NCBI GenBank assembly: GCA_023823795.1
Contig: CP085710.1
Span: 1,576,001-1,640,000, forward strand
Origin: Bacillus sp. F19
GTDB taxonomy: Bacteria; Bacillota; Bacilli; Bacillales; Bacillaceae
Length of the DNA stretch: 64,000 nt
Reading direction: 5' to 3'
In this document: in pieces, positions 23,944 to 28,995 of the stretch
How the letters are laid out: each line of letters begins with the position of its first letter
Position numbering within the stretch: position 1 is the first letter of the stretch
Program-made: the position numbers and the translations under genes
Notes under the pieces: generated by a model
What the model was told of the DNA's origin: nothing
The model's input: only the letters and a program-made list of their open reading frames with translations
Databases searched by the model: none

Positions 23944-24074
23944 TTAATTAGAACTTCCATCTTAATATGTTTAGAGAGTGAATGGACAGCAGATTGCCAA
24001 ATTGTAAGAAAAGCGACACATTTTGAAGTTACCTGAAAAGATTGGACAGCAGTCTAAAAAAATATGAGAAACGG

Positions 24075-24103
24075 TTGCGGCCAGAGGCCCAATTTGCTAT
24101 ACT
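24075..24103 (+). promoter_or_regulatory. Sigma-A promoter of the cold-shock gene
   Basis: TTGCGG, 17 nt, TATACT. Predicted start near 24110 leaves a leader of about 109 nt before the cold-shock ATG, the long 5'UTR expected of csp mRNAs. Confidence 0.65.
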
Positions 24104-24218
24104 AAGAGTAATTATTTTTGTTCGTAATATGATTAAAAAGGCATTCGTCTTGAAGAATATTATCTAGAGCAGGGATAGTAATACAATTGTGCGGATAACG
24201 CACGAGGAGGATACACAC

Positions 24219-24416
24219 ATGTTACAAGGTAAAGTTAAATGGTTTAACGCAGAAAAAGGCTTCGGTTTCATCGAAGCAGAAGGTCAAGAAGACGTATTCG
24301 TACATTTCTCTGCTATTCAAGGCGAAGGCTTCAAAAGCTTAGAAGAAGGCCAAACAGTTACTTTCGAAATCGTTGAAGGCGCTCGTGGACCACAAGCAGC
24401 TAACGTTCAAAAGTAA
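24219..24416 (+). CDS. Cold-shock protein (CspB/CspD family)
   Basis: The 65-residue protein [23 protein letters not shown] is a canonical bacterial cold-shock domain. RNP-1 is KGFGFI (residues 13-18) and RNP-2 is VFVHF (26-30). It binds single-stranded RNA and DNA and acts as an RNA chaperone at low temperature. ATG 24219 follows GAGGAGGATACACAC. A long leader and a strong hairpin terminator flank it, so it is monocistronic. Which of the B. subtilis paralogues (CspB, CspC, CspD) is closest cannot be fixed without alignment. Confidence 0.95.
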
Positions 24417-24426
24417 TTGAACGAAA

Positions 24427-24453
24427 GGACTCCCGTGCCGGGAGTCTTTTTTT
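24427..24453 (+). terminator. Terminator of the cold-shock gene
   Basis: GACTCCCG and CGGGAGTC pair around TGC and are followed by seven T. Confidence 0.9.
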
Positions 24454-24866: not shown

Positions 24867-26408
24867 CTATTCTGATTCTGGATCCAGCACTTTGAGCGGC
24901 TTATCGGCAGGACCCTCAATCACTTCTCCGGTGTAAGAAAACCTGGAGCCGTGGCATGGGCAGTCCCATGATCGGTCGCCGCTGTTCCATCCTACTTCGC
25001 AGCCTAAATGAGTGCATGTCGTATCAACGAGATGAAGCACGCCATGCTCATCTTTATAAGCGCCGGCTTTTTTACCCTTGAACATGACGGCGCAGCCTTC
25101 ATTTACTTTAAGATCTTCAGTTTTTTTAGATGGACGCTTGAGCTTGCCTGAGATTAAATGCTTGGCTACGTCCGCATTTTGTTTCAGAAACTCTTTTACA
25201 CTCGGGTCGGATTGGAAGCGGGAAGGTGTAAAGAGATCAAGGTAGCGGGATTCTTTTTTTACGATCAGGTCTTTCAGCATAAGGGCTGCAAAGGTTCCGT
25301 TTGTCATGCCCCATTTATGAAATCCCGTTGCTGTAAAGATGTTTTTGTGACTTGAAGAAAGATTTCCGATGTACGGCACTTTATCAAGAGTGAATAAATC
25401 CTGTGCTGACCATCTATGTGTGATGTTACTTAAGCCGAAAACTTCTTCGCCAAACGTTTCCAGCTTTTCATAAAGCTTATGTGTATCATTCACTTGCCCT
25501 GCTTTGTGACCTTCTCCGCCAATGAGGACGTGTTCCTCTCCGCCGCTTGCAGCCGAACGGAGAGAGCGTTTAGGTTCATCTACGCTTAAATACATTCCTC
25601 CCGGATAGGGCTTCTTCGTTTTCGCGCTAAGTACATAGGAACGATCGGCATACATTCTCGCAAAATAAAATCCATTCCCATCATAAAAAGGGAAATGTGA
25701 AGCAGAAATGACGTACTGACAAGTGATTTCAAAACCTTGGTTTGAAATCAGCTTCGGTTCATCTTCTGTTCCCTTTACATCGATAATCGCTGTGTTTTCA
25801 AAAATTTGAACACCACTCTGTGACATTTCTTCAAGCAGGCTATGTAAGTAGTTCAGCGGATGGAACTGAGCTTGATTTTTTACGATCAGTGCGCCCTGGA
25901 TCTCAATCTCAAGCGGAATGGCATCTGTATATTCATATGGAATACCAAGAGTATCATAAGCTTCTTTTTCTTTAAGCAGTTTTTTTAGTGAGTCATCTGA
26001 AACGGCATAAAGAATCGCGTCTTCATCAGAGAAGCCGCAGTCAATCTTCTTTTCATCAACCATTTTACGAATAAAGTCGAGACCGCTTTTATTTGCTTCG
26101 TAATAATGTTTGGCTCCATCAGCGCCAAAGTGCTGAATAAGTTCATCATAAATAATATCATGCTGTACGGTTATTTTTGCAGTTGTATGGCCGGTTGTCC
26201 CGTTTAACACAACGTCTGAATCGACCAATGCTACCGACAATCCCTCTTTTGAAAGTAAATAGGCAGAAGTAATTCCGGTGATTCCTCCGCCAACAATCGC
26301 CACATCTACATTCAAATTTTTTGAGAGCTTCGCATATGATGGCAGCTTGGCAGAATCTCTCCAGTAAGGATCTGGAAATTTAGGCAGCTTTGAATTCTGA
26401 TTCTTCAA
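24867..26408 (-). CDS. FAD-dependent oxidoreductase fused to a Rieske [2Fe-2S] domain (YhfW-like)
   Basis: A 513-residue fusion. Residues 30-400 form a DAO-type FAD domain: VDVAIVGGGITGITSAYLLSKEGLSVALVD is the Rossmann GxGxxG with acidic end, TTGHTTAKI follows, and TATGFHKWGMTNGT near residue 360-375 is the C-terminal FAD contact. From about 430 a Rieske domain follows with C-T-H-L-G-C and C-P-C-H-G-S, the four cluster ligands. The layout matches B. subtilis YhfW. It probably passes electrons from an amine or similar donor through FAD to the cluster; substrate unknown. The start is TTG 26408, with AAAGGAGGGG at ideal spacing. Cytoplasmic, monocistronic. Confidence 0.88.
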   Translation of the reverse strand: MKNQNSKLPKFPDPYWRDSAKLPSYAKLSKNLNVDVAIVGGGITGITSAYLLSKEGLSVALVDSDVVLNGTTGHTTAKITVQHDIIYDELIQHFGADGAKHYYEANKSGLDFIRKMVDEKKIDCGFSDEDAILYAVSDDSLKKLLKEKEAYDTLGIPYEYTDAIPLEIEIQGALIVKNQAQFHPLNYLHSLLEEMSQSGVQIFENTAIIDVKGTEDEPKLISNQGFEITCQYVISASHFPFYDGNGFYFARMYADRSYVLSAKTKKPYPGGMYLSVDEPKRSLRSAASGGEEHVLIGGEGHKAGQVNDTHKLYEKLETFGEEVFGLSNITHRWSAQDLFTLDKVPYIGNLSSSHKNIFTATGFHKWGMTNGTFAALMLKDLIVKKESRYLDLFTPSRFQSDPSVKEFLKQNADVAKHLISGKLKRPSKKTEDLKVNEGCAVMFKGKKAGAYKDEHGVLHLVDTTCTHLGCEVGWNSGDRSWDCPCHGSRFSYTGEVIEGPADKPLKVLDPESE

Positions 26409-26539
26409 ATGAACCCCTCCTTTATTTAAAATTTATCCTGTATTTATGAAGAGTAAACTTTTTCCTTTAAATATCTGATGATGAAAGTTCCATTTTATGA
26501 TTTCCATAAAATACAAATAAATGTATATGAAATAATTGA

Positions 26540-26569
26540 TTGATAATTTTGACAGTCATCGGTTATACT
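26540..26569 (+). promoter_or_regulatory. Sigma-A promoter of the structured leader
   Basis: TTGATA, 18 nt, TATACT. Predicted initiation near 26576, shortly before the first arm of the structured RNA. Confidence 0.55.
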
Positions 26570-26602
26570 TGAAGTAACTTAAGGAACGGAGGTGGATAAG
26601 AG

Positions 26603-26737
26603 ATGATGAGTTTGAAAGTGTCGCACGGTAAAGAGTTGTCATACCTTTATTTATGTCGTGCAATTTTTCATGCAATTATGATCAACGGGATACGTATGCC
26701 CTTTTTCATTAATTGCATAGACACATTCAAACGTTAA
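26603..26737 (+). CDS. Possible 44-aa leader peptide inside the structured region
   Basis: ATG 26603 (ATGATG) follows GGAGGTGGATAAGAG, a near-perfect ribosome binding site. The frame gives MMSLKVSHGKELSYLYLC and ends IDTFKR before TAA at 26735. Its first and last codons lie in opposite arms of the long-range stem, so the two ends of the peptide are simply reverse complements. No family is recognised. If translated, ribosomes would open the stem, as in translational attenuators of antibiotic-resistance ABC-F genes. It may equally be a chance frame. Confidence 0.35.
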   Translation: MMSLKVSHGKELSYLYLCRAIFHAIMINGIRMPFFINCIDTFKR

Positions 26738-26771
26738 GATGATTCTCTTATCCATTCAATCAAAAGTGATG

Positions 26772-26800
26772 CGGAGAGCTTATTAGCTCTCCGTTTTTTT
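26772..26800 (+). terminator. Terminator ending the structured leader
   Basis: CGGAGAGCT pairs perfectly with AGCTCTCCG around TATT and is followed by seven T. It lies 320 bp before the ABC-F start. Confidence 0.9.
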
Positions 26801-26812
26801 ATGTCATTATTG

Positions 26813-26926
26813 CTAGCTGCACCGCCTGACTGCTCTGTCAGAACAGATTCGCAAAAAAGTCAAAACAGGACTTTTCTGTCGGATCCTAATCTATCATCGG
26901 AGCTTGGCAAGGCGGTTCCGCTTTTC
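26813..26926. repeat. Dispersed intergenic repeat, copy 2
   Basis: Opens TAGCTGCACCGCCT, contains CTCTGTCAGAACAGATTCG and GTCAAAACAGGACTTTTCTG, and closes AAGGCGGTTCCGCTTTTC. ACCGCCT and AGGCGGT are terminal inverted arms. Strongly similar to copy 3 only 75 bp away. Confidence 0.7.
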
Positions 26927-26999
26927 GATTGACCAGGATAAGCAGGAAACTGCTTCTTTCTGGTCTTTTTTAAGTTTTAAGAAAGTATAAGGTTTGCGC

Positions 27000-27109
27000 A
27001 TCGATGGCGAGAGGAATCGCCCAATTCCTCTGTCAGAATGGCTTCGCCAAAAAGGTCAAAATCGGACTTTTCTGCGAGCCTAAAGCTAAACGGGCGATTC
27101 CGCTTTTCT
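27000..27109. repeat. Dispersed intergenic repeat, copy 3
   Basis: GGAATCGCCC and GGGCGATTCC are perfect 10-bp terminal inverted arms; the core CTCTGTCAGAATGGCTTCG and GTCAAAATCGGACTTTTCTG matches copy 2. It ends CCGCTTTTC, so the closed form would resemble a weak terminator just before the ABC-F ribosome binding site. Confidence 0.7.
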
Positions 27110-27129
27110 AATAAAAGGAGATGTCACTC

Positions 27130-28995
27130 ATGACAATATGTTCTGTTCATCAATTAGCAAAATCATATGGAAGCCAGCTTATTTTTGAAAATTTATCCTT
27201 TGAAATAAATGAAAATGAAAAAATCGGATTTGTAGGACGAAACGGGACGGGAAAAACAACATTGTTTAAATGTCTGTCAGGAATCGAGCAGCCTGACGCA
27301 GGAACGATTTCAATCAGAAAAGGGATGAAGGTCGGATATCTCGCCCAAATTCCGATGTTCCCCGCCGGAACAACGGTTGACGAGGTTCTGAGACAAGCTT
27401 TTGCCGAGTTAAATCTTTTATCGAACGAGCTTGCACAGCTTGAAATGGAGATGTCTGGAACAAAGGATCCTGATAAATTGGAAAAAGCCCTTGCACGATA
27501 TGGCATTTGCCAGGAAACATATGAAAATCGGGGCGGATACGAGATGGATGCTAAAATCAGCGCCGTTGCAAACGGGCTGCAGCTGCAGCCTCTTCTGAAC
27601 TCGGATTTTGACACGATCAGCGGCGGAGAGAAAACAAAGGTGTCCCTTGGTCTAATGCTGCTTCAGGCACCCCAGATCCTCTTACTCGATGAGCCGACTA
27701 ATCACCTTGATATTGCTGCTGTAGAGTGGCTTGAAGGCTTTTTAAAAGAATACAAGGGTACGGTTGTTGTCATTTCACATGACCGTGCATTTTTAGATGA
27801 AGCAGCTGCAAAAATCATCGACCTAGAAGATGGAGAGGTCACAGTTTACCATCACAATTATTCTGGCTTCATTTCGGAAAAACAGAAGAGGCTGATGGCT
27901 GAATTTCAGGCTTATCAGGATCAGCAAAAGAAAATGAAGAAAATGAGAGAAGCCATCAAAAGACTGAGAGAATGGGCAAATCAGGCAAATCCTCCAAATG
28001 AGGGACTGCACAAACGTGCACGGAATATGGAGCGTGCACTTGAGCGGATGGAGAAATTAAAAAAGCCCATTTTGAATCACAGGAAAATGGATCTCCATTT
28101 TGAAGGATCTGACCGAAGCGGTAAAAAAGTTCTGACCTTTGAAAACGTAACAAAAACTTTTGGAAGAAGACAGGTGTTTGAAAATGTCAGCATGCAGCTT
28201 TCCTATAAGGACAGGGCGGCAATTGTCGGAGAAAACGGTTCCGGCAAGTCCACGCTGCTGAAACTGGTCATGGAAGAGTATGAGCCTGATGATGCAGGAG
28301 TGCGGATTGGCAGCAGCGTGAAAATAGGGTACCTCTCCCAGCAGTTTTTTCTCACAGATGCAGAAGTTTCGATCATCGATTATTTCAGGGAGGATTTGTC
28401 TGTCTCAGAAGACGATGCCCGCCATATATTAGCAAAATTCTTATTTTACGGGTCTGCTGTCTTTAAAAAAATGAAAAACACAAGCGGGGGAGAAAGAATG
28501 AGAATCCAGCTTGCTAAGCTGATGCAGAAGGATCTTAATTTTCTCATTCTGGATGAACCGACCAATCATTTGGACATTGATTCAAGGGAAGTGCTTGAGG
28601 ATGCAATTGAACATTTTGACGGGACCATCCTCGCTGTTTCCCATGACAGGTACTTTCTGAACAAACTTTTCACAAAAACGTTCTGGCTTTATGAAAAACG
28701 GCTTCATTCATTTGATGGTAATTACTCATGGGCACGGGAAAAGATGAAGGGGCTCCTGTCTGAAAAAGAGGTGTCTTCAAAGGAAGTTACAAAGCTTGTG
28801 GTGAAAAAATCAAACGATATTAAGCAGGGTGCAGGGACGGCAGAAATTGAAATTCAGATTGAACAGCATGAAAACGAATTATTCCGGCTCGAAGAACAGA
28901 TGCTTTCGCTGACAGATCTTGCGAAGCTGATGGAGCTGAACAGACTGAAGGAAGAAAAAGAAAAGCAGATTGAAAGGTTATATGAACAGCTTTAA
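27130..28995 (+). CDS. ABC-F family ATPase (ribosome-protection type)
   Basis: ATG 27130 is 9 nt past AAAAGGAG; ATG 27121 abuts that site. The 621-residue protein has two ABC domains and no membrane segment. Walker A motifs are GRNGTGKTT and GENGSGKST, signatures SGGEKTKVSLG and SGGERMRIQLA, and both have LDEPTNHLD. The linker between them (KKMREAIKRLREWANQANPPNEGLHKRARNMERALERMEKLKKPIL) is a long helical hairpin of the type that reaches the ribosomal P-site tRNA. A C-terminal coiled coil (NELFRLEEQMLSLTDLAKLMELNRLKEEKEKQIERL) follows. Such proteins rescue ribosomes from antibiotics or stalling. The structured leader upstream suggests attenuation control. Close relatives could be Lsa/Vga-like or housekeeping. 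Confidence 0.88.
   Translation: MTICSVHQLAKSYGSQLIFENLSFEINENEKIGFVGRNGTGKTTLFKCLSGIEQPDAGTISIRKGMKVGYLAQIPMFPAGTTVDEVLRQAFAELNLLSNELAQLEMEMSGTKDPDKLEKALARYGICQETYENRGGYEMDAKISAVANGLQLQPLLNSDFDTISGGEKTKVSLGLMLLQAPQILLLDEPTNHLDIAAVEWLEGFLKEYKGTVVVISHDRAFLDEAAAKIIDLEDGEVTVYHHNYSGFISEKQKRLMAEFQAYQDQQKKMKKMREAIKRLREWANQANPPNEGLHKRARNMERALERMEKLKKPILNHRKMDLHFEGSDRSGKKVLTFENVTKTFGRRQVFENVSMQLSYKDRAAIVGENGSGKSTLLKLVMEEYEPDDAGVRIGSSVKIGYLSQQFFLTDAEVSIIDYFREDLSVSEDDARHILAKFLFYGSAVFKKMKNTSGGERMRIQLAKLMQKDLNFLILDEPTNHLDIDSREVLEDAIEHFDGTILAVSHDRYFLNKLFTKTFWLYEKRLHSFDGNYSWAREKMKGLLSEKEVSSKEVTKLVVKKSNDIKQGAGTAEIEIQIEQHENELFRLEEQMLSLTDLAKLMELNRLKEEKEKQIERLYEQL

Follow-up and report, generated by a model that had tools for sequence, protein, structure and literature searches.

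A conserved leader-peptide element, predicted to act as a transcription attenuator, upstream of an ABC-F ATPase gene in Bacillus sp. F19

A probable attenuator in front of an ABC-F gene

The window, meaning the whole stretch of 64,000 nucleotides analysed from Bacillus sp. F19 (contig CP085710.1), contains at positions 26540 to 26800 an element that we read, with a probability of roughly 80%, as a ribosome-mediated transcription attenuator of the ABC-F gene downstream. It probably induces this gene in response to an antibiotic that stalls ribosomes. Control of the ABC-F gene by an attenuator had been one option of the original prediction, and it is supported by the nearly invariant linkage of the two (55/55 and 64/65 loci in two surveys), by covarying stems and by a consensus scan that shows no plus-strand promoter-like site after the terminator. 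The comparisons below point to a real and conserved leader-peptide attenuator, with a hairpin core, T2, whose sharing with other leaders was unexpected. The original prediction had not recognized that the leader frame belongs to an NCBIfam family, that the element is widespread, or that the T2 core is common to the leaders of other resistance genes.

Organization of the locus

All parts of the locus lie on the plus strand. Where a promoter had been claimed, we found a promoter-like site, TTGATA-18-TATACT (26540-26569), which is named from its consensus match only (10/12). The near-perfect ribosome binding site was also recovered, as the Shine-Dalgarno sequence GGAGGT (26588-26593) of a leader frame, RAxF-45, which occupies 26603-26737 and has 44 codons plus a stop (ATG at 26603, TAA at 26735-26737). 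Both long-range pairings described earlier, of 11 bp and of 12 bp with one mismatch, were confirmed. In the first, P1, the 5' arm (26593-26603) makes 11 pairs with 26744-26754, the 26593/26754 pair being read directly from the sequence; in the second, P2, the 5' arm (26610-26622) makes 12 pairs, with one mismatch, with 26720-26732. The 5' arm of P1 runs from the end of the Shine-Dalgarno sequence as far as the first letter of the ATG, and the 3' arms of P2 and P1 (26720-26754) form a candidate antiterminator strand. The frame does start in the 5' arm, as stated before, but its supposed stop after the 3' arm holds only for P2, since in P1 the 3' arm begins shortly after the stop.

The two internal hairpins of the original prediction are present as T1 and P4. 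T1 (26623-26668), seen in the fold and with weak covariation, has the arms GCACG/CGTGC (26623-26627 with 26657-26661), and then five T. P4 (26670-26718) is formed by ATGCAATTA/TAATTGCAT, with arms at 26670-26678 and 26710-26718, and encloses T2, which consists of the core GGGATACGTATGCCC plus five T (26687-26706; core proper, 26687-26701). Runs of T therefore stand 3' of both T1 and T2, a feature that, like the hairpin T4 below, the original prediction had not mentioned. The intrinsic terminator T3 (26771-26800), identified by a terminator scan and a stem check, is perfect as predicted but has 10 pairs instead of 9 (26771-26780 with 26785-26794, then six T). A second terminator-like hairpin, T4 (approximately 26931-26971), lies in the spacer that separates T3 from the start of the ABC-F gene (27121); the scan found part of it (26940-26955), and the stem was checked. 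In a consensus scan of 26400-27200, no plus-strand promoter-like site was found between T3 and 27121. Two stretches of this spacer, 26837-26890 and 27030-27085, look similar by eye (CAAAAAAGTCAAAACAGGACTTTTCTG / CAAAAAGGTCAAAATCGGACTTTTCTG).

The ABC-F ATPase gene (27121-28995, 624 aa) matches the NF000355 profile for ribosomal protection-like ABC-F proteins with 484.5 bits (cut-off, 380), and its designation as a putative antibiotic-resistance (ARE) type comes only from this family score. Its PADLOC matches were generic ATPase matches and were set aside.

Two layers of conservation in the leader frame

The leader frame scores 57.4 bits against NCBIfam NF041642 (RAxF-45), above the cut-off of 27, and is a member of this family. 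The family name was not found in a literature search from which subscription journals were mostly absent. Translation of the leader is suggested at the level of sequence by coding constraint and by a good Shine-Dalgarno sequence, with at least five of six matches to GGAGGT in 55/55 homologues.

The codon pattern was evaluated in 32 of 33 genera, one being dropped with its core in another frame. The pN/pS ratio stood at 0.82 for the codons of the N-terminus and fell to 0.52 along the LYxCRAI stretch; it was 1.12 ahead of T2 and reached 3.66 within the T2 codons. A leucine two codons ahead of the cysteine region is encoded in five synonymous ways, and the GGG of T2 is GGG in 32/32. By these ratios and this codon usage, FLYxC is kept as a peptide and the T2 hairpin core as RNA; NF041642 is filed as a protein family, and part of its conservation here is that of an RNA hairpin. 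The variant leaders fit such a two-layer conservation. Of these, 8/12 have the strict T2 core in a shifted reading frame (as RDQSALF or RDTYALF), two further ones read LDQSV through T2, and in L216 and L217 the leader frame stops before the core. In the erm(D)-type leaders, the T2 core is wholly outside the leader frame. A search for the leader peptide on plasmids gave no match at E <= 0.01.

Distribution and linkage to the ABC-F gene

Among 151 related genomes, 61 have an RAxF-45 match at E <= 0.001 and 55 have one above the cut-off, compared with 0/14 control genomes. An orthologous ABC-F gene, with 47-100% identity to that of the window, lies just downstream in all 55 above-cut-off loci. 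A scan of named genomes, a set that overlaps the 151 and is thus not fully independent of it, gave 65 RAxF-45 loci, including Metabacillus, Rossellomorea, Neobacillus, Peribacillus, Cytobacillus, Heyndrickxia and others. At 64 of these the ABC-F gene is present, with 53-89% identity; the exception (L194) is a locus of 3.3 kb at the end of a contig. The order of leader frame, P1/P2, P4 with T2, T3 and ABC-F gene is kept across many genera, and T3 was present in 51/55 or 47/55 loci, depending on which of two rules was applied.

We also listed 13 ABC-F orthologues of at least 47% identity that lack an RAxF-45 match, leaving out a partial gene at a contig start (G075). One of the 13 (G036) starts 113 bases from a contig end, too near to be judged. 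Each of the remaining 12 carries a leader frame together with a T2-like core; a covariance model of the leader, described below, matches 11 of these 12 at E <= 0.001, the exception being G125. For more distant ABC-F paralogues, 0/7 leaders matched the model at E <= 1, and three of the seven show no leader-like region by eye, the other four having a different leader of six codons. At L096-L099, ABC-F paralogues (39-44% identity) stand behind what looks by eye like a six-codon leader of MxPTxC type with another terminator. In G114, two frames appear in place of a single ABC-F gene (L065).

An improbable alternative would make RAxF-45 a small protein gene of the usual kind, ended by a terminator of its own, with the ABC-F gene merely adjoining it. 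The good Shine-Dalgarno sequence in every homologue, the existence of a curated protein family and the protein-level constraint on part of the peptide would all agree with such a gene. However, it would leave unexplained the linkage to a single ABC-F clade in both surveys, the high pN/pS of the T2 codons, the eight variant leaders with the strict core in a shifted frame and the two more that read LDQSV, and the placing of T2 beyond the leader stop codon at L216 and L217. The stems, moreover, extend outside the frame, and the consensus scan shows no promoter-like site after T3.

Fold and covariation of the leader RNA

The region 26560-26820 folds at -81 kcal/mol, compared with a shuffle mean of -56.3 (sd 4.3; z -5.7), and 0/200 shuffles were as stable. 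All 55 homologues allow P1/P2 and P4 to be drawn. On the full 54-sequence alignment, RNAalifold returned just 3 pairs, the GG(G)/(C)CC of T2, and in none of them had both sides changed; since the registers slide, the program misses the long stems, and it was replaced by arm-swap tests and by a subset in one register. In the arm-swap test, cognate arms were compared with swapped arms using one sequence per genus (33 genera, 1000 permutations). For P1/P2, the cognate arms paired at -24.3 kcal/mol and the swapped arms at -16.9 (z -12.9, 0/1000 permutations), and for P4 the values were -13.8 and -7.1 kcal/mol (z -13.8, 0/1000). T2 gave z -4.1. The four controls gave z -3.1, -1.0, -0.2 and +1.0; T1 (z -3.3) was no better than the first of these, and P2 alone failed the test (z -1.2), so that the test establishes neither T1 nor P2 by itself. 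Compensatory changes in the stems, which the original prediction named as support for it, are thus indicated for P1/P2 and P4.

The second approach used 24 sequences aligned in one register, with a structure drawn from one member, which favours that structure. Here, 20/38 pairs were changed on both sides, against 16.0 in the shuffled alignments (sd 2.0; 25/500), as were 63 cells (shuffled 30.6, sd 4.5; 0/500; 25-48 in slid versions). Covariation was 0.258 (shuffled 0.171, 0/500; at most 0.139 when slid), and 57 further pair types were counted (shuffled 52.1, 27/500). Two of the five covariation measures, those with 25/500 and 27/500, just mildly exceed the shuffles. In both approaches, covariation is seen for P1, the closing stem, and for P4, the inner one.

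A covariance model built from these 24 sequences, none of them from the genus of the window, finds the window leader with 128.3 bits (E within the window, 5e-22). In the whole genome, where scoring covered 150 of the 2933 first-look candidates, one match was reported (E 4.6e-20).

A stable fold of this kind could also belong to a free-standing small RNA with its 3' end at T3. Such an RNA would likewise have its own promoter-like site and a strong terminator, and the terminated product of an attenuator would look identical to it in RNA-seq. We regard this reading as very improbable in view of the constant position before one gene and the conserved coding layer; given the two conservation layers, the element is most likely a leader-peptide attenuator and not a free small RNA. 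A ligand-binding riboswitch, also named in the original prediction and suggested by the closed multi-helix fold with a terminator, is likewise very improbable, since the Shine-Dalgarno sequence and the start of a conserved frame lie inside a stem and no riboswitch class of Rfam 15 was found. The original prediction had matched the element to no described class, and in the same way no Rfam 15 family reached its gathering score, with a relaxed search giving chance-level matches only, below all gathering scores. Elsewhere in the window, the Rfam cspA thermoregulator matches 24070-24453 (86.8 bits), over a cold-shock protein gene.

Proposed mechanism and known leaders

The mechanism that we propose for the attenuator is inferred from vmlR and bmrCD, including the order of folding, stalling and read-through. 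Without drug, P1/P2 would form once its 3' arm has been made, acting as an anti-antiterminator with a vmlR-like logic, and T3 would stop most transcription. A drug would stall the ribosome at the leader start or in the early codons and mask the 5' arm. The freed 3' arm of P1/P2 could then pair with the 5' side of T3 as an antiterminator, and RNA polymerase would read through T3 into the ABC-F gene. T1 and T2 are probably early terminators or pause sites that couple the polymerase to the leading ribosome, and T4 may be a further terminator or pause site.

The antiterminator is the weakest link of this mechanism. Of eight leader segments, only the 3' arm of P1/P2 fits the 5' arm of T3 better than swapped arms (27 genera), with a z of -2.6 (14/2000) that is marginal after eight tests. 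In the window itself this pairing is weak (-7.6 kcal/mol). With free choice of partner, a wider search gave no consistent one, the value being -14.5, with another partner, against a shuffled mean of -14.3.

As outlined in PMC9226507, vmlR of B. subtilis is controlled by stalling on a uORF, an anti-antiterminator and an antiterminator. The leader described here resembles it in having an ABC-F gene, a uORF inside the first stem and a later terminator, and the freeing of an antiterminator by a stalled ribosome, a feature of vmlR (PMC9226507), is what we propose for RAxF-45. However, the vmlR uORF is given there as the tripeptide MIN in a leader of 219 nt, whereas the RAxF-45 leader has 44 codons with embedded hairpins. 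The ABC-F proteins also differ, the solved VmlR chain scoring 258 bits, below EttA at 287. According to the account in PMC4191407, induction of bmrCD of B. subtilis by lincomycin requires leader translation and a terminator within the leader. Its bmrB frame, described as about 50 codons long and holding a terminator and alternative stems, is like RAxF-45 in its described layout, and controls an ABC transporter instead of an ABC-F gene (PMC4191407). Further leader precedents are indicated in PMC10201436, PMC10219788 and PMC12421871, and the RppA riboregulator of B. thuringiensis may be related. RAxF-45 thereby gains a likely role, as the leader peptide of an ABC-F attenuator, and a widespread leader class is added that is absent from Rfam 15.

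The T2 core in front of other resistance genes

Weak RAxF-45 matches led to erm(D)-type leaders, for which the leader peptide ErmDL (MTHSMRLR...) is reported in PMC8298421. These leaders have the T2 core in common with RAxF-45. They differ from it in their stems and in their 14-codon leader, which ends before T2, and they were found before Erm, Mef-like, Msr and RlmA-like genes.

Searching the pattern GGGRBNVGTMTGYCCHWTTT gave 108 matches in 72/151 genomes, against 3 with the reversed pattern and 0 with the loop GT and TG exchanged. The zero of this scrambled-loop control argues that the loop letters of T2 matter. By our count, 52 of the 108 belong to window-type ABC-F leaders and 6 to erm(D)-type loci (L076, L077, L079 and L080). 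The remaining 50, classed by best tblastn match, comprise 19 ABC-F genes of other kinds, 4 Erm, 3 Cfr, 2 RlmA-like, 6 Mef-like, 5 other MFS, 3 of one unnamed methyltransferase and 8 without a match, two of which have erm(D)-type leaders; the queries came from the same loci, so the unnamed MFS and methyltransferase classes are groupings only. When 20 proteins were scanned with NCBIfam, Cfr, Erm and Msr scored above cut-off and the Mef-like and RlmA-like proteins below. Apparently unrelated to resistance are 6/50 matches, in purE, gcvT and ribD leaders and others, and because of these leaders part of the T2 signal may be a favoured terminator shape.

Across the class Bacilli, the pattern occurs in 119/299 genomes. 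Among 40 of the places listed, hand-picked for diversity, 26 best match the window ABC-F, 3 another ABC-F, 2 RlmA-like, 1 Mef-like, 1 Erm and 1, weakly, an MFS protein; 6 match nothing in the set. By NCBIfam, one of these six is FexA, whose 1043 bits exceed the cut-off of 900, and another is MphL-like, its 563 bits falling below the cut-off of 612. In this sample gcvT was seen again (L243), and L249 has no identified gene. The fexA leader of L218 (340-780), in which the T2 core is present, has matches of at least 95% in 162 plasmid records, a count of leader matches and not of cores; 106 are from Enterococcus, and Staphylococcus is represented too.

From these observations we tentatively propose, at a little short of even odds, that the T2 core (GGGRBNVGUMUGYCC, then U-rich) is a modular attenuation signal throughout the class Bacilli. 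It would be one short element for pausing or termination, specific in its sequence, that by joining various leader peptides has put unrelated ribosome-drug resistance genes (several ABC-F, Erm, Cfr, RlmA-like, Mef-like, Mph-like and FexA) under stalling control, and it would travel on plasmids with fexA. A literature search for the T2 letters, again mostly without subscription journals, found nothing. If T2 is a functional module, one mechanism could underlie inducible resistance to several classes of ribosome-targeting drugs in Bacilli; its conserved loop would then be a precise signal for what the polymerase or its factors recognize, and T2 could serve as a sequence handle for finding further drug-inducible resistance genes.

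Unnamed methyltransferase-like genes of about 250-280 aa lie behind the T2 core in L117, L126, L133, L237 and L238, and an NCBIfam scan of the proteins of L117 and L238 gave no match. In L104, L105 and L211, Cfr-family genes stand behind a leader frame with the T2 core, the frame beginning MITVFRILYG... in L104 and MLTVFRILFG... in L105.
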